NCBI RefSeq assembly: GCF_007097485.1
Contig: NZ_VKDE01000001.1
Location: forward strand, 126,925 to 190,924
From: Carboxylicivirga sp. M1479
Lineage (GTDB): Bacteria > Bacteroidota > Bacteroidia > Bacteroidales > Marinilabiliaceae
DNA: 64,000 nucleotides
Direction: 5' to 3'
Part shown: piece by piece, positions 12,871-60,103 of the stretch
Layout: each line of letters begins with the position of its first letter
How positions within the stretch are numbered: the first letter of the stretch is position 1
Translations under genes and position numbers: made by a program
Notes under the pieces: generated by a model
What the model was told of the DNA's origin: nothing
Database searches by the model: none
What the model saw: only the letters and a program-made list of their open reading frames with translations

Positions 12871-14421
12871 ATGGCACAAGAGGACGTTTTTAAAAAGCTG
12901 GTAGCTCACTGTAAGGAGTATGGTTTTGTTTTTCAATCAAGCGAAATATACGATGGCTTAGGTGCTGTTTACGATTATGCGCAAAATGGTGTTGAACTGA
13001 AGAACAACATTAAAAAATACTGGTGGGATGCCATGGTGTTGTTGCACGAGAATGTAGTTGGTATCGACTCATCAATTTTTATGCACCCAACCATTTGGAA
13101 AGCTTCGGGACACGTAGATGCTTTTAACGATCCTTTGATTGATAATAAAGACAGTAAGAAACGTTACCGTGCCGATGTGTTAATTGAGGACTTGATTCAA
13201 AAGTTCGAAGAGAAGATTAACAAAGAAGTAAAGAAAGCTGAGAAACGTTTTGGTGAAAGCTTTGATAAAGCTCAGTTTTTGGAAACGAATCCACGTGTAT
13301 TGGCCAATCAAAAGAAAATTGATGAGGTGCACACACGCTTTGCCAAAGCTTTAAACGATAATGACCTGGAGGATTTGCGCCAGATTATTATTGATTATGA
13401 AATTGCTTGTCCTATATCTGGTACTAAAGAGTGGACCGATGTACGTCAGTTCAACCTGATGTTCTCAACCGAGATGGGTTCAACAGCTGATGGTGCTCAA
13501 AAAATATATTTACGTCCTGAAACGGCACAAGGTATTTTTGTGAATTACCTAAACGTGCAAAAAACAGGTCGTATGAAATTGCCTTTTGGTATTGCCCAAA
13601 TTGGTAAAGCATTCCGTAACGAGATTGTGGCCCGTCAGTTCATCTTCCGCATGCGTGAGTTCGAACAGATGGAAATGCAATTCTTTGTTCGCCCTGGAGA
13701 AGAGATGAAGTGGTTTGAATATTGGAAGGATGCACGTGTTAGATGGCACAAATCATTGGGCATGGGTGAGGAGAAATACCGTTTCCACGACCATGAGAAG
13801 TTGGCTCACTACGCCAATGCAGCTACCGATATTGAGTTTAAGATGCCATTTGGATTTAAAGAGGTGGAGGGTATTCATTCTCGTACCGACTTTGACTTGT
13901 CGCAGCACCAGGAGTTCTCAGGTAAGAAAATTCAATACTTCGACCCAGAGTTGAATAAGAGCTATGTGCCTTATGTGGTAGAAACATCAATTGGTGTTGA
14001 TCGCATGTTCTTAAGTATTATGGCTGGTGCTTATAACGAAGAGGAGGTTGAAGGTAAAGGTGGTAAAAAAGAAACTCGTGTTGTATTGAATCTGCCACCA
14101 GTATTAGCGCCAATTAAGTTAGCTGTTATGCCATTGGTTAAAAAAGATGGTCTGCCAGAAAAAGCCCGTGCTATTATTGATGATTTGAAGTTTGACTTCA
14201 ACTGTCAGTACGACGAGAAAGACAGTATTGGTAAGCGTTACCGTCGTCAGGATGCAATTGGTACACCTTTCTGTGTAACGGTTGACCACCAGTCATTAGA
14301 AGACGATACGGTTACTATCCGTCATCGTGATACCATGGAGCAGGAGCGTGTTAAAATAGCTGATTTGCAAGGTATCATTGGCAAAAAAGTAAGCATGCGC
14401 GAAGCATTCAAGAATTTATAG
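12871..14421 (+). CDS. glyS: Glycyl-tRNA synthetase, single-chain class II type
   Basis: 516 residues, fitting the homodimeric bacterial/archaeal-type GlyRS rather than the alpha2beta2 type. Class II motifs are visible: motif 2 (FRNEIVARQFIFRMREFEQMEMQF, cited here as positions ~247-270) and motif 3 with the E-x-S-x-G-x-D-R pattern (ETSIGVDRMFL). The C-terminal anticodon-binding domain starts with PPVLAPIKLAVMPL. An insert (about 110-170) is Lys/Glu rich. It charges tRNA-Gly in the cytoplasm. It has its own promoter-like box and a terminator, so it is probably monocistronic. Confidence 0.96.
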   Translation: MAQEDVFKKLVAHCKEYGFVFQSSEIYDGLGAVYDYAQNGVELKNNIKKYWWDAMVLLHENVVGIDSSIFMHPTIWKASGHVDAFNDPLIDNKDSKKRYRADVLIEDLIQKFEEKINKEVKKAEKRFGESFDKAQFLETNPRVLANQKKIDEVHTRFAKALNDNDLEDLRQIIIDYEIACPISGTKEWTDVRQFNLMFSTEMGSTADGAQKIYLRPETAQGIFVNYLNVQKTGRMKLPFGIAQIGKAFRNEIVARQFIFRMREFEQMEMQFFVRPGEEMKWFEYWKDARVRWHKSLGMGEEKYRFHDHEKLAHYANAATDIEFKMPFGFKEVEGIHSRTDFDLSQHQEFSGKKIQYFDPELNKSYVPYVVETSIGVDRMFLSIMAGAYNEEEVEGKGGKKETRVVLNLPPVLAPIKLAVMPLVKKDGLPEKARAIIDDLKFDFNCQYDEKDSIGKRYRRQDAIGTPFCVTVDHQSLEDDTVTIRHRDTMEQERVKIADLQGIIGKKVSMREAFKNL

Positions 14422-14480: not shown

Positions 14481-14487
14481 GGATGGT

Positions 14488-14781
14488 AACCACCCCGCCT
14501 TTGGCACCCCTCCTTACAAAGGAGGGGAAGGGCGATCAGTCTGGAACAGTTTTTAAGGCCTTACGCATTATTCCCGAATTCTGTCTTAAGTAATAACACA
14601 AGCTTTTGTAATGGCTCATAACATTCTTCTTACGCTATGTCAATCATTCTCCTCCTTTTTTAAGGAGGAGTACCACGAAGTGGGGAGGTGGTTTATTATT
14701 ACCAAGTTGATAACCACCCCGTCTTGCACACTTCTTATCAAGTAGAGGAATGAGCTACCAGCGCTAGGTGAGGATTGGGGG
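14488..14781 (+). repeat. Palindromic repeat cluster A (type 1 + degenerate type 2)
   Basis: Type 1 unit 14488-14693 (206 bp) begins AACCACCCCGCCTTTGGC and ends GTGGGGAGGTGGTT. Each end carries its own hairpin (CCCCTCCTT/AAGGAGGGG and CTCCTCCTT/AAGGAGGAG). It is nearly identical to the 206-bp unit at 16644-16849. A shortened type 2 unit (14712-14781) follows. The cluster fills most of the 362-base gap between glyS and the bestrophin gene and abuts the bestrophin stop codon. Confidence 0.85.
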
Positions 14782-14783
14782 TA

Positions 14784-15845
14784 TTACATCTGCACATGAA
14801 ACTTCTCAGGGAACTGTGATGGTATCTGTTCCTCTTCCTCATCCATTAACTGACGTAGGTCCCGTTCAATGCCACGGGCAATGGTTGAAATAGGTACATC
14901 ATTGGCTGAGCCCTCAAAAGGATTCTCTCCAACCGTACCAATGCGCATCATGGTATGGAATATCCACGAAACTACACCGCAAAATGGCACGGCCAGCCAA
15001 ATAAAATGCTCAGCAATAAGAGGAAATACCATTTTTACTTTATCAGCAATATTGGCAAATTCAGATACTAAACTCATGGGTAAGAGAATTAAGAACATCC
15101 ATACAAACTGGTGCGATAGGGTTGCATATTGTCGGGGGTAGGGGAAATTTTTTATGCGCTCTGATTTTCCTTGTAGCTCAAACTGTTCCTTTAGCATTGA
15201 CTGAAGCTCCAGAAATGAAAACTCCCATATAATCTTTCGCTCTTTTAAATCTTTAAGGTGGGCCGATTGCAGGTAAAGAACAGCCGCTTGTTTGTTGTCT
15301 TTGCTTAATACATAAGCATGTTCCTCGGGAGTCAGGTATTCAAGCAAGTCATCACTTAACGATGTTACACGTTCGGGTATATAGGCAATGCGCGACCACT
15401 CACGGTTGGTTCTGTGTTTTTCAAATACCTCCCATTTTTTACTTTGGCGCATGGCGTGGCGCAAAGCTGTCATCCAAGCTATGTGGCGATAAACTAACTG
15501 TTGTTTGTGTTTTTTAAGCTCCTTATCATCCATCGCTTTATCGGTATATTCATTGCTCAGCATCGATTGAATCATCATGCCCCAGCTACGCGAATTATTA
15601 ACGATACCACCCCATATTTTTCGTGCCTCCCAAATACGACCATAAGCAGCATTATTTTGAAAACCAACTATAAATGCCACTGCGGTACCAATTAAGGCAA
15701 CGGGTGTCCACGGCATATCAATAAATATGAAGCCTAGAACTTTGTATAAAAAAGTGATGAGTAAAGCATATAACACAAATAGCAGTGTTTCGCCACGTGT
15801 CCATAGTATCATTTCCTTGAGGGTATATCTAACTTTTGTAAGCAT
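14784..15845 (-). CDS. Bestrophin-family membrane channel protein
   Basis: 353 residues. It has the bestrophin/UPF0187 layout: two N-terminal membrane helices (about 22-70, FVLYALLITFLYKVLGFIFID and PVALIGTAVAFIVGFQNNAAYGRIWEARKIWGG, which contains the family-typical N-x-AYxRxWEAR pattern), a soluble helical middle, two more membrane helices (about 245-305) and a C-terminal GENPFEGSANDVP with the family's NPFE/D-ND-P signature. Bacterial homologues form pentameric ion channels in the inner membrane. The stop codon lies at the edge of repeat cluster A, and clusters A and B flank the gene. Confidence 0.9.
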   Translation of the reverse strand: MLTKVRYTLKEMILWTRGETLLFVLYALLITFLYKVLGFIFIDMPWTPVALIGTAVAFIVGFQNNAAYGRIWEARKIWGGIVNNSRSWGMMIQSMLSNEYTDKAMDDKELKKHKQQLVYRHIAWMTALRHAMRQSKKWEVFEKHRTNREWSRIAYIPERVTSLSDDLLEYLTPEEHAYVLSKDNKQAAVLYLQSAHLKDLKERKIIWEFSFLELQSMLKEQFELQGKSERIKNFPYPRQYATLSHQFVWMFLILLPMSLVSEFANIADKVKMVFPLIAEHFIWLAVPFCGVVSWIFHTMMRIGTVGENPFEGSANDVPISTIARGIERDLRQLMDEEEEQIPSQFPEKFHVQM

Positions 15846-16230
15846 ACTGGTTTATTTAGTCTACTCAACTAACAAACATTGACTTAATATGTTGAATGAC
15901 GAATGCTAAGCCGGGTCTTGCTGACTTATTAAACCATTTTAATTTCATACTGTACTTGTATAAACAAGCTTTTGTAATGCCTTATAACTTCTCCTTACAT
16001 CAAGTGAATTACTCTCCTCCTTTTTTAATGAGGAGTACCACGAAGCTGGAAGGAGGTTTAATATAAAAAAGCTCAAACCACCCCGCCTACGGCACCCCTC
16101 CTTATAAAGGATGGGATGATTTACAACCTTGCTAAACCTTCTTCCCTTTTTTAGGGGGAAGTACCACCGATAGGTGGGGATGGGGGTAAAACAATTATTA
16201 ATATATTAGAGGTAAGACTAAATTTTATCG
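15846..16230. other. Intergenic region holding repeat cluster B
   Basis: 385 bases. About 15846-15965 shows no gene or motif; the rest is repeat cluster B plus ~45 bases of AT-rich leader before the DUF559 ATG. Confidence 0.6.
15966..16186 (+). repeat. Palindromic repeat cluster B (3' part of type 1 + type 2)
   Basis: 15966-16058 matches only the second half of the type 1 unit (AAGCTTTTGTAATG through the CTCCTCC/GGAGGAG hairpin). 16076-16186 is a complete type 2 unit starting AACCACCCCGCCTACGGC and ending TAGGTGGGGATGGGGG. It lies immediately 5' of the DUF559 gene. Confidence 0.85.
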
Positions 16231-16590
16231 ATGAAAACCAACAAACCTGAGTTAAAAACTTTCAGAAGACACCTGCGAAATAACTCTACCTCTGCAGAAA
16301 TAGAACTTTGGCGGCATTTAAAAGGAAAGCAGGTCGCTAACTTTAAGTTTAGAAGACAGCATTCTATTGATAATTACATATTAGATTTTTACTGTCCTCA
16401 GCTAAAACTTGGAATCGAATTGGATGGGGAATATCATGCGATGTCTGAAAAATATGATAGCATAAGAGAAGGTGTATTAAAACAGAATGGGATTACAATT
16501 CTACGATATGAAAATAGAATGGTGTTTGAACATTTGGATACCATCTTGATGGATGTTGTTGCTTTTGCAAAAAGTAAAAAAGATTATTAA
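16231..16590 (+). CDS. DUF559 (Vsr-like fold) endonuclease-domain protein
   Basis: 119 residues, about the size of a lone DUF559 domain. The family pattern is clear: R-x-LR-x-N-x-T-x-AE-x-x-LW (residues 12-27), KFRRQHSI (39-46), YILDFYCPQLKLGIELDGEYH (49-69) and a C-terminal ILRYENRMVFEHLD. The PD-(D/E)xK-like acidic residues D52, E63 and D65 with H69 are intact, so it is likely to be an active nuclease. It resembles Vsr mismatch endonuclease in fold, but the substrate of this family is not known to me. It sits alone between palindromic repeat clusters B and C, so I infer a possible role in their spread, analogous to RAYT proteins and REP repeats. Confidence 0.85.
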   Translation: MKTNKPELKTFRRHLRNNSTSAEIELWRHLKGKQVANFKFRRQHSIDNYILDFYCPQLKLGIELDGEYHAMSEKYDSIREGVLKQNGITILRYENRMVFEHLDTILMDVVAFAKSKKDY

Positions 16591-16643
16591 ATCCCGTTCA
16601 AAGTGTGTGTTACAAGAGGTGTCAGTATTCTGATAAAGTTAAT

Positions 16644-16973
16644 AACCACCCCGCCTTTGGCACCCCTCCTTATAAAGGAGGGGAAGGGCGATCAGCCTGG
16701 AACAGTTTTTAACGCCTTACGCATTATACCCGAATCCTGTCTTAAGTAATAACACAAGCTTTTGTAATGGCTCATAATATACTTCTTATGCTATGTCAAT
16801 CACTCTCCTCCTTTTTTAAGGGTGAGTACCACGAAGTGGGGAGGTGGTTTAATATAACCAATAATAACCACCACGCTTTGTACACTCCTTATAAAGGATG
16901 GGATGATTTACCACCTTGCTAAACCTTCTTCCCCTTTTTAGGGGGAAGTACCACCGATAGGTGGGGATGGGGG
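16644..16973 (+). repeat. Palindromic repeat cluster C (type 1 + type 2)
   Basis: Type 1 unit 16644-16849 (206 bp, the same length as in cluster A and visibly ~90% or more identical to it, including the internal GGGCGATCAG..CTGGAACAG stretch) followed by type 2 unit 16866-16973. Together with cluster B it brackets the DUF559 gene. Confidence 0.87.
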
Positions 16974-17017
16974 AAATTATTACACAAGATTTTCTGTAGG
17001 GATAGCTTATTTCCTGA

Positions 17018-17265
17018 GCATAGCGAGAAATTCATTCGTGTAGCGAGAGATTTCAACTGCCTGGCGAGGTTTTTCCGACGTATAGCGAGCTTTTTACGGT
17101 TCCCAGCGAATAATTTCAACACCTAGCGAGTAATTTCCATCATCAAGTAGATCATTTACCACCTATAGCGAGCAATTTCCCAAATAGAAATCGTTCGCTA
17201 GGCCATGGAAATTATTCGCTACACGAATGAATTTCTTCGCTAGCCTTAGAAATAGCTCGCTATCT
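17018..17265. repeat. Palindromic array of ~21-bp TAGCGAG units
   Basis: Direct units TAGCGAG(n)nATTTC start at 17021, 17041, 17062 (TGGCGAG), 17083, 17104 (CAGCGAA), 17124, ~17148 (degenerate) and 17166. Inverted units (TTCGCTA/CTCGCTA) lie at 17194, 17215, 17236 and 17256. Spacing is 20-21 bases throughout except around the degenerate unit. Outer units pair perfectly: the 20-bp arm at 17027-17046 (AAATTCATTCGTGTAGCGA region) is complementary to 17216-17235. There is no coding potential. Confidence 0.85.
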
Positions 17266-17271
17266 ATAAAA

Positions 17272-17952
17272 CTATTGAAACCCCAACTCCTCAATCATAT
17301 ACTTGAATGGTTGATAGGTATCTGCCTCCAGTAAAAGAGCTTCTTTAGAGATGGGATGAATCATTTTGAGTTGTTTAGCGTGTAGCATCATGGTTGTCAT
17401 GTTCCAACGCTCTTTAAACAGTTTGTTTTGTTTGTTGCATCCATGTGGTCGATCGCCAATGATGGGATGACGGAGGTGATTAAGGTGTTTGCGAATCTGG
17501 TGCATCCGACCTGTTTTGGGTTGAGCTTCAATGAGTGAGTAACGCGATGTTTCAAACTTACCGAAAGGAATGGGCAGCTCGCTACGCTTTAATGTTTTGA
17601 AATGGGTGAGTGCTTCCTGTGTTTTGCCGCGGTCGTTGGTGAGTGGGTAATCTACTTCTATTTCATCAGGAAAGAAACCACGTACAATGGCAATGTATAT
17701 TTTTTGAGTCTCAGAATCTTCAAAGATGCTTTGTATCTGGGCCGCCACACTGCTGCTCAATGCAAAAACTAAGATGCCAGATGTTTTTCTATCCAAACGG
17801 TGAATAGGAAATACCTTTTGTCCAATCTGGTCTCGCAACAATTGCATGGCAAACTCTTCGGCATCGGCCGCAATGGGACTGCGATGAACGAGAAGTCCAT
17901 GAGGTTTGTTAATGGCCACCATGTATTGATCTTGATAGATAATTTCGAGCAT
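17272..17952 (-). CDS. truC: tRNA pseudouridine synthase C (RluA family)
   Basis: 226 residues from the ATG at 17952; an in-frame ATG at 17970 would add MHKTTA before the conserved LEIIYQDQYMVAINKPHGLLVH start. It contains the RluA-family catalytic motif HRLDRKTSG with the nucleophilic Asp, plus QPKTGRMHQIRKHL and HPIIGDRPHG, which is the TruC-like ending of the domain. There is no S4 domain, and the length fits TruC, which makes pseudouridine-65 in some tRNAs. Its stop codon adjoins the 21-bp palindromic array, and repeat cluster D lies upstream. Confidence 0.85.
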   Translation of the reverse strand: MLEIIYQDQYMVAINKPHGLLVHRSPIAADAEEFAMQLLRDQIGQKVFPIHRLDRKTSGILVFALSSSVAAQIQSIFEDSETQKIYIAIVRGFFPDEIEVDYPLTNDRGKTQEALTHFKTLKRSELPIPFGKFETSRYSLIEAQPKTGRMHQIRKHLNHLRHPIIGDRPHGCNKQNKLFKERWNMTTMMLHAKQLKMIHPISKEALLLEADTYQPFKYMIEELGFQ

Positions 17953-18292
17953 TGCTGTTGTTTTGTGCAAATGTACTTTAAAACTTTATAGCAATTGTTT
18001 TTCTTATAGGCCCCGTACAATGCCTTATATCTTAATTTACTCTCTTTACAAATGTTGCAGGTTCAAGTCCATAACCACCCCGCCTTTGGCATCCCTCCTT
18101 ATAAAGGATGGGATTGAGTTACATCTTGCCAATTCTCTTCTGCTTTTCAGGGGGAAGTACCACCGTTAGGTGGGGATGGGGGTAAAAATATACCAATCGA
18201 ATCACGTGTAAGGATAAGAAACTCACTAATAGTCACTTTTTCTATTCCAATAACATTGCGTATTTTCACGGTTCAAATATAATTGCAATACC
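17953..18292. other. Intergenic region between truC and yfhO-like gene
   Basis: 340 bases between divergent genes. It holds repeat cluster D (18073-18182); the rest is AT-rich sequence that should contain both promoters, but no good TAnnTTTG box stands out. Confidence 0.5.
18073..18182 (+). repeat. Palindromic repeat D (lone type 2 unit)
   Basis: 110 bp starting AACCACCCCGCCTTTGGC and ending GTTAGGTGGGGATGGGGG, with internal CCTCCTTATAAAGGATGGG and AGGGGGAAGTACCACC, matching the type 2 units of clusters B and C. Confidence 0.85.
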
Positions 18293-41600: not shown

Positions 41601-41843
41601 TGGTCATGTGGAACTCCCAAATAAATTCGATCATTGCCAGGGAATTCGCTTTTAAGCATTTTAACCACCTCCCCACTTCGTGGTACTCCTCCTTGGCAAG
41701 GATGAGAGGGGTGAAAAATCGTCCCCTCCTGAATTTTAGGAGGGGTGCCGACAGGCGGGGTGGTGTAATTAGTTTTAAAAGCAATTTCCCTGCGATCATT
41801 GCCCTGTGTGCCATTTTATTGATTGAATTTACATGGTCGATTG
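41601..41843 (-). ncRNA. Conserved leader element, copy 3, interrupted by a MITE
   Basis: Reading the minus strand, CGACCATGTAAATT..ATGGCACACAGGGCAATGATCG (41843 down to 41792) is followed by the MITE, then AATTTATTTGGGAGTTCCACATGACC (41626 down to 41601). Removing the insertion and one 10-base duplicate restores an element matching copy 4 at 42890-42971 (CGACCATGTAAATTT ... AAATTTACTTGAGAGTTCCATATGAC). Confidence 0.6.
41627..41801. mobile_element. 155-bp MITE (41637-41791) with 10-bp target duplication
   Basis: Identical direct repeats CGATCATTGC flank the element at 41627-41636 and 41792-41801. Termini are CAGGGAATTCGCTTTTAA and TTAAAAGCAATTTCCCTG, imperfect inverted repeats. The core has a TTCGTGGTACTCCTCC end and a GGTGCCGACAGGCGGGGTGGTG end, the same motifs as the DUF559-associated repeats. 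It has no coding capacity, so it must be moved in trans. Confidence 0.85.
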
Positions 41844-59928: not shown

Positions 59929-60103
59929 GGGCTTATCTCGGGGAATTCGCTTTTAAGCATTTTAACCACCTCCCCACTTCGTGGTACTCCTCCTTGGCAA
60001 GGAGTAGAGGGATGAAAAACCGTCCCTTCCTGAATTTTAGGAGGGGTGCCGACAGGCGGGGTGGTGTAATTAGTTTTAAAAGCAATTTCCATGGGGGTAT
60101 CTT
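59929..60103. mobile_element. 155-bp MITE copy 2 (59939-60093)
   Basis: Starts CGGGGAATTCGCTTTTAA and ends TTAAAAGCAATTTCCATG; same length as the copy at 41637-41791 and ~95% identical (about 7 differences). Flanks GGGCTTATCT and GGGGTATCTT look like a decayed 10-bp target duplication. It lies ~50 bases upstream of the pepF start codon on that gene's leader side. Confidence 0.85.

Follow-up and report, generated by a model that had tools for sequence, protein, structure and literature searches.

Tagged hairpin repeats accompany DUF559 nuclease genes and probably form a mobile system with them

The stretch of DNA analysed here, called the window, comprises 64,000 nts of contig NZ_VKDE01000001.1 of Carboxylicivirga sp. 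M1479 (positions 126,925 to 190,924, forward strand). Within it, seven related hairpin units, some of them decayed, lie around a single gene encoding a DUF559 nuclease and form a repeat island of 3.7 kb (14487-18183). The original prediction had placed four repeat clusters in this span, with the gene between the second and the third; all four (A to D) were recovered, and the open reading frame (ORF) of the nuclease does lie between B and C. One of the units is laid out like a REPIN, i.e., a pair of repetitive extragenic palindromic (REP) sequences. The features of the island are the following.

14487-14786: cluster A, a long unit and a decayed short unit.
14487..14693, + strand: long unit, REPIN-like (AACCACCCCGCC tag and hairpin, then hairpin and GGGGAGGTGGTT); 94% identity to 16643-16861, fold z -3.3.
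14711..14786, + strand: decayed short unit of cluster A; 61% identity to the reference copy.
15964-16187: cluster B, a decayed 3′ part of a long unit followed by a short unit.
15964..16061, + strand: decayed 3′ part of a long unit, cluster B; 76% and 92% identity in two comparisons.
16076..16187, + strand: short unit immediately 5′ of DUF559; from self-comparison, fold z -2.7.
16231..16590, + strand: DUF559 (PF04480) PD-(D/E)XK nuclease gene, 119 aa; PF04480 E 1.2e-30.
16643-16972: cluster C, a long unit and a short unit.
16644..16849, + strand: long unit immediately 3′ of DUF559; from self-comparison and fold.
16862..16972, + strand: short unit, cluster C; 97% identity to 16098-16189.
18072-18183: cluster D, one short unit.
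18073..18183, + strand: short unit, cluster D; 92% and 62% identity in two comparisons.

The long unit (about 206 bp) is present in the window as two nearly intact copies and one decayed part, and the copies starting at 14487 and 16643 are 94% identical over 219 nts. The short unit (about 110 bp) has copies at 16076, 16862 and 18073 and a decayed copy at 14711; the stretches at 16098 and 16885 share 97% identity over 92 nts, while the stretch at 18094 has 62% identity to the reference short unit at 16098. Intact units open with the tag AACCACC, followed by a small hairpin and then by a strong GC hairpin, and their 3′ close is a rougher, inverted version of the opening. Folded as DNA, the 46-nt tag-plus-hairpin ends at 14487 and 16643 reach -12 kcal/mol (z -3.3, with 0 of 200 shuffles as good) and the unit end at 16074 gives a z of -2.7 (1 of 200 shuffles as good). 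Hairpins and inverted ends had been predicted for each unit; the opposite end at 16797 folds weakly (z -1.4, 24 of 200 shuffles as good).

The DUF559 gene is separated from the nearest units of clusters B and C by about 40 and 50 bp, respectively. Seven residues are invariant in an alignment of 49 proteins (E23, Q43, D52, E63, D65, H69 and D76) and all are present in the window protein, which keeps the active-site residues of the PD-(D/E)XK fold (E23, D52, E63, D65, H69 and D76). Its nearest solved structure is 3hrl (E 8.2e-18). Its family match is PF04480, and PF01797, the HUH/Y1 family, is not among its matches. A phage origin was considered and set aside; in a tblastn search the protein matched 3 of 50,697 phage records.

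Flanking of DUF559 genes by repeats is not peculiar to the window. A gene was scored as flanked when a repeat was common to the 500 bp upstream and the 500 bp downstream (blastn, E up to 1e-3). PF04480 was found in 89 of the 198 genomes of the window's order, and the sample from the order consisted of 85 matches in 53 genomes, with matches at contig ends and some in large ORFs left out. A second, named sample came from one scan of GTDB genomes, in which 571 relatives were confirmed; its best 80 loci were used, six of which were dropped for short flanks and three of which, being fused to other genes, were counted apart. Far from usually lying away from repeats, as would have been contrary to the original prediction, 105 of the 148 free-standing DUF559 genes (77 from the order and 71 named, from several phyla) have a shared flank repeat, versus 13 of 497 pooled controls at shifted positions. 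Within the order, the proportion is 55 of 77 versus 9 of 243 shifted positions, although a few of the 77 loci are tandem neighbours and hence not all are independent. Similar values were obtained for the named Bacteroidota (34 of 44, versus 2 of 164 controls) and for other or unassigned phyla (16 of 27, versus 2 of 90), the fused named loci giving 1 of 3, versus 0 of 12. Controls centred on ORFs were flanked in 11 of 168 cases for small ORFs and in 16 of 312 for ORFs of any size. The association of DUF559 with repeats is well supported at the level of sequence comparison.

The repeats lie close to the gene. At the 77 free-standing loci of the order, perfect GC hairpins cover 44.9 and 50.8 bases per kb within 200 bp upstream and downstream, respectively; the cover is 25 and 14 per kb at 200-400 bp and 0 to 7.3 in bins lying 600 bp to 4 kb away. 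Within intergenic DNA, it amounts to 53.9 per kb within 500 bp of DUF559 versus 13.3 beyond 1.5 kb. Repeats of the same plan adjoin DUF559 in records of Acidobacteria, Geobacteraceae, Nitrospinae, Brevinematales, Parcubacteria, Akkermansiaceae and cyanobacteria, many of them metagenome-assembled, and one- or two-sided repeats occur at DUF559 in replicons of Deinococcus, Azospirillum, Photobacterium, Sinorhizobium and Picosynechococcus.

These repeats have a common plan, i.e., a C-rich tag followed by a hairpin with a C-rich 5′ arm, often in inverted pairs. With a motif that was defined after some of the loci had been read, tagged hairpins number 1.77 per kb within 400 bp of DUF559 versus 0.058 per kb beyond 1.5 kb (165 loci), and at least one is present at 116 of the 165 loci. 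By reading, the tags are ACCACCCC, CACCCCCGG or CCCCTAAATC, neither of the GTAG nor of the CGTC type. Within this plan, the sequence of the repeat goes with the DUF559 lineage, in different genomes and phyla alike, a conclusion that is well supported by comparison with a tree of 168 DUF559 domains (112 columns, rough bootstrap). Among 11,587 cross-genome pairs, repeat similarity drops with protein distance (Spearman -0.16, with 0 of 300 Mantel permutations as strong). The proportion of pairs whose repeats match with at least 40 bits falls from 41% of 93 pairs at protein distances below 0.8 to 13% of 395 at 0.8-1.2, 4% of 1109 at 1.2-1.6, 0.3% of 5139 at 2.5-4 and 0 of 308 beyond. The aligned part contains a palindrome in 38 of the 47 strongest cross-genome pairs listed (205 pairs reach at least 40 bits), and several of the very highest-scoring pairs are conserved neighbouring genes. 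A nearly identical repeat can be shared across phyla, as between Geobacteraceae and Rufibacter (97% over 32 nts). Within a genome, 38 of 41 DUF559 pairs have no common repeat (at most 36 bits) and all of these lie at protein distances above 0.6; the three pairs that share repeats are all near copies.

That the composite of repeats, DUF559 gene and repeats is mobile is likewise well supported, as far as the comparison of loci can indicate. In one genome (G127), it lies between argC and argD (gene names by reading) together with a 47-bp duplication of the start of argD, 94% identical, while in a congener (G024) argC directly adjoins argD and the unit is absent. In a second genome (G060, locus L101), the duplication is of 24 bp, 88% identical, and includes the ATG of the next gene. 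Direct repeats lacking CCCC or GGGG were found on both sides of the gene at 28 of 155 loci versus 6 of 288 controls. Most of these 28 were rejected as target duplications, being repeat variants, and only those at L144 and L101 were accepted, that at L112 being judged doubtful. For two Azospirillum loci, no clean empty site was found: for L383, 7 records cover 99-100% of the query including the DUF559 region, and for L388 most of the query is covered by its own record alone. In a further genome (G188, L071/L095), a stretch of about 640 bp that comprises DUF559 and its repeats is duplicated in tandem at 97.9% identity.

Copy number was assessed by searching 12 units taken from flank repeats against their 12 source genomes, 13 relatives without DUF559 and the source genome of the window (G000); a count is the number of matches to any unit, with at most 14 candidates scored per genome. 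Eleven of the 12 genomes that supplied the units gave at least two unit matches, with a maximum of 50, and these lie on several contigs. None was found in 11 of the 13 relatives without DUF559, which speaks for the link; repeats as common without DUF559 as with it, which would have told against the original prediction, were mostly not seen. Inverted pairs spaced 72-115 bp start to start occur in three of them (G147, G170 and G192). The 50 matches of G146 are partly in arrays, and G000 has a single match.

DUF559 also occurs in frame, together with peptides encoded by the palindromes, inside ileS, leuS, hsdM, hsdR and genes for a Type ISP enzyme, an N6_N4 methylase and an epimerase. Of 30 genomes inspected, picked in part for their large ORFs, three have DUF559 and palindrome peptides in ileS, at a site that is a loop of about 10 residues in relatives. 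At this same site, the loop of L199 and L192 contains, by reading, a palindrome-like peptide without DUF559. Copies in leuS were found in eight genomes (L153, L155, L158, L159, L160, L060, L171 and L368), between the catalytic and editing domains (domains checked for L158), and hsdM is interrupted at the same place in a Bacteroidota genome (L065) and in Methylomonas (L359). Twelve in-frame copies from mixed host genes form one clade (100/90, rough bootstrap) without free-standing members. One leuS copy and one hsdM copy pair as sisters within it (99/92), which means that the insert has switched between host genes. In a faster tree built from more rows, 14 in-frame rows fall in one clade (support 0.89), and several separate in-frame origins are seen in addition. 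Among the eight fused copies of the order, an upstream tagged hairpin is present in five (L153, L154, L155, L158 and L159), with tags outward, and a downstream one in seven, the nearest tag being outward in six; downstream of L154, one tag-in hairpin is followed by one tag-out hairpin. The tags of the hsdM copy in Methylomonas are turned inward. At E 1e-5, none of the nine host proteins scanned gave a match to a Hint or a splicing domain. Other leuS copies (L370-L373 and L379) look old: by reading, their palindromes and much of the active site have been lost, and the degenerate DUF559, located at two different leuS sites, is apparently domesticated.

Taken with the island, these observations are probably best read as follows: the island would be one copy of a widespread REP-like mobile system, in which DUF559 is the dedicated nuclease, a counterpart, of unrelated fold, of the REP-associated tyrosine transposase (RAYT). 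The mobile unit would consist of one or more tagged hairpin repeats, the DUF559 gene and again one or more tagged hairpin repeats. DUF559 would recognise the hairpin repeats that belong to it, probably in the form of a folded single strand or an extruded cruciform, and would nick or cut at the repeats and at a target. The whole unit, or the repeat pair alone as a non-autonomous REPIN-like copy, could then enter the target as a copy made by host repair; the target would be duplicated over tens of bp, as paired nicks tens of bases apart would give. That such long duplications are a general rule is suggested by two loci.

Such a system would resemble REP/REPIN-RAYT elements (TnpA-REP, or REPtron) in that a small solitary nuclease gene lies between its own hairpin repeats, often as inverted pairs, in that the repeat is specific to the enzyme lineage, and in that non-autonomous copies are dispersed, with inverted pairs in G147, G170 and G192 as examples. 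For RAYT, too, the repeat type was reported to track the enzyme lineage, in the part of the source available (PMC6006769). The two systems differ in enzyme (PD-(D/E)XK for DUF559, HUH/Y1 for RAYT), in tag, which is C-rich of the ACCACCCC or CACCCCCGG type rather than GTAG, and in insertion, DUF559 units having duplicated 24 bp of target at one locus and 47 bp at another and being inserted in frame in coding genes. Hence the analogy drawn in the original prediction stands for the association, the match of repeat to lineage and the mobility of the unit; its further step, that the nuclease processes or spreads the repeats, is one that we infer.

Outside the island, the same motif forms the core of two 155-bp elements of the window, as had been predicted.

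41638..41792, + strand: 155-bp element with terminal inverted repeats (TIRs; CAGGGAATTC...), repeat inside; 10-bp target duplication cgatcattgc; a separate miniature inverted-repeat transposable element (MITE), outside the DUF559 unit.
59939..60093, + strand: second 155-bp TIR element, which also contains the repeat; its ends have decayed in part, and the pattern search that gave 11 copies did not pick it up.

Their TIRs are CAGGGAATTCGC...GCAATTTCCCTG, with the DUF559-type repeat as the core. A pattern search yielded eleven copies of the element. Exact 10-bp duplications border four of them, one being a window copy, and inexact ones border some others. The elements have the TIRs, the target-site duplication and the lack of coding capacity of a MITE, and the DUF559 repeats themselves are without such TIRs. 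They spread as ordinary TIR elements with the repeat as a passenger; since they have their own TIRs and 10-bp duplications, the two MITEs of the window moved by another route and are separate from the DUF559 unit. Elsewhere in the window, the genes neighbouring DUF559 are a bestrophin-like gene and a pseudouridine synthase gene (profile scan of the flanking genes), and the ORF at 12871 is, by reading, a glycyl-tRNA synthetase. Right after cluster C, positions 17000-17270 contain about 12 AGCGA/TCGCT motifs in an inverted layout, with arms at 17026-17067 and 17195-17236 that are 83% complementary.

Several observations weigh against DUF559 as the dedicated nuclease of the repeats. In the source genome of the window (a 5.4-Mb draft in 130 contigs), the long unit has 71 matches at E values up to 10, of which many are short, and many of the dispersed ones are the 155-bp TIR element, i.e., the product of another mechanism. 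Of the three DUF559 genes of this genome, one is directly flanked by repeats. The other two (contig C39; L001 and L037) sit in the two copies of a duplicated block, each with wecB on one side and wecC on the other (names by reading): at one block, the repeat clusters are located just beyond those genes, and at the second no repeats were found within the stretch searched. Free-standing genes without a shared flank repeat number 22 of 77 in the order and 21 of 71 in the named sample, and two of the three repeat-sharing pairs within a genome are one locus. In the copy-number test, the matches of G082 were to itself only. The contrast in unit matches between genomes with and without DUF559 is partly built in, as the units were taken from positive genomes and the candidates were limited. 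Two of the relatives, G123 and G109, have 23 and 12 unit matches without a DUF559 gene; loss or draft gaps are possible there. Flanking is also not unique to DUF559, small GIY-YIG genes being equally flanked. In addition, repeat recognition and cutting by DUF559, the single-stranded or cruciform substrate and the repair step are all points that we infer. The strongest contrary fact is the role in mismatch repair, together with a cytosine methylase, that was argued for the Caulobacter DUF559 protein VsrA in the part of the report available (PMC12907096), though roles in repair and at repeats need not exclude each other. Apart from these points, one of the wecB-DUF559-wecC blocks is surrounded by extensive clusters of repeats that are 300 nts long and contain TATACCACCTCCC...GTGGTACTCCTCC hairpins.

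The alternative that survives best, unlikely in our judgement, is that DUF559 is cargo carried between two repeats in the manner of a composite transposon, perhaps as a Vsr-like repair enzyme, the repeats being moved by a RAYT, an insertion sequence transposase or host recombination. VsrA has the same nuclease superfamily and the DUF559 domain, and its functional link to cytosine methylation and the SOS response would suit such a cargo; as far as the available part of that report extends, the argued role is mismatch repair and repeats are not mentioned (PMC12907096). The 155-bp elements show that the repeats in them clearly travel with a TIR element. Moreover, Y1 transposases are present in 61 of 66 genomes with a strong DUF559 match versus 77 of 132 others, which also counts against a dedicated DUF559 nuclease. 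However, cargo would be expected to vary and to be unmatched to the repeat, yet DUF559 lineage and repeat sequence stay matched from genome to genome and between phyla, and most in-frame copies are a DUF559 clade of their own. Three genomes (G146, G057 and G112) have a repeat-flanked DUF559 gene without a PF01797 match. The source genome of the window has five Y1 transposase matches, and its RAYT-like gene on contig C52 (L041) is, by reading, flanked by a different repeat (CGCGCG...TTTCGCG). On the evidence of this gene and of those three genomes, RAYT was rejected as the enzyme of the DUF559 repeats. Among the top Y1_Tnp matches, taken as a positive control, 12 of 29 were repeat-flanked (1 of 30 dropped), a figure that says little since the set mixes IS200-like and RAYT-like genes.

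Equally improbable, if not slightly more so, is a parasite of the homing type, in which DUF559 would cleave repeat or loop sites and its gene would be copied in by recombination at repeat homology, while the repeats multiply otherwise. Inteins and homing endonucleases are in-frame, nuclease-bearing inserts in core genes that recur at the same site, and GIY-YIG is a classical homing family. The in-frame DUF559 inserts in core genes are similar in this respect, recurring at the same sites in leuS, ileS and hsdM, and tandem copies (L071) and the GIY-YIG parallel would also be in keeping with homing. Unlike inteins, the DUF559 inserts lack a Hint domain in the hosts scanned, are bounded by palindromes and have free-standing relatives. 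Against homing, no repeat to home into was read at the argC-argD junction or at those ileS and leuS sites that are uninterrupted; the ileS loops of L199 and L192, with a palindrome-like insert alone, are the exception and suggest that repeats move without the gene. The weakest alternative, that ordinary hairpins (terminators or random intergenic repeats) lie by chance near a small gene, can be set aside as practically negligible: such hairpins are indeed common in intergenic DNA anywhere (13.3 per kb), but the fourfold intergenic excess near DUF559, its similar size upstream and downstream, the flanking frequency compared with small ORFs and the copies inside coding sequence all stand against it, and the shifted-position and ORF-centred controls ruled out a chance or terminator origin of the flank repeats.

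The GIY-YIG genes had been taken as a negative control and failed as such, small genes of this family in the window's order (L253-L282) being themselves repeat-flanked in 22 of 27 cases (3 of 30 dropped for short flanks), and the ORF-centred controls were used instead. Their repeats are mostly of the TGAGCGRAGYCGAA, TGAGC...TCGAA type, some being GTCATYCC...GGRATC, and at L272 and L282 the common stretch reads like a tRNA gene fragment. The top 10-mers of the DUF559 and GIY-YIG flanks occur in 0 to 2 samples of the other class, and each GIY-YIG 10-mer is present in at most 7 of the 30 loci. As the GIY-YIG motif differs, repeats of the DUF559 kind do not simply go with any small nuclease gene. 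Seven genomes have 10 to 14 GIY-YIG matches each, and DUF559 is abundant in some of these genomes; some GIY-YIG matches lie in ORFs of about 900 aa.

The CGTC-tagged REPs, which include the Rickettsia RPE and the Neisseria dRS3, are comparable as tagged palindromes that form dimers and sometimes lie inside genes, their tag and hairpin sequences being different from those of the DUF559 repeats; in the available part of a 2013 survey, no associated transposase gene is reported for them and their mobiliser is left open (PMC3733652). For the link between DUF559 and repeats, no earlier report was found in the open-licence PubMed Central literature, judged mostly by titles and abstract openings. A broader picture can be offered tentatively, as a possibility that we hold to be somewhat less than even: at least three unrelated nuclease folds (HUH/Y1 in RAYT, already known, PD-(D/E)XK in DUF559 and GIY-YIG) may run bacterial hairpin repeats, each with its own repeat family. 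The DUF559 elements might then constitute a new class of transposable elements with staggered nicks and duplications of tens of bp. One lineage of them might have become specialised for residence in frame within essential genes and genes of restriction-modification, as an insert that does not splice, is bounded by palindromes and moves from one host gene to another.

Many bacterial hairpin repeats are without a known mobiliser, and a conserved nuclease matched to its own repeats is a directly testable case. The pairing of GIY-YIG genes with repeats bears on the question of REPs without a dedicated transposase, as posed in the available part of that survey (PMC3733652). If the proposed system is real, it would provide a function for DUF559 (PF04480) and would explain the palindrome-encoded peptides in leuS, ileS, hsdM and hsdR.

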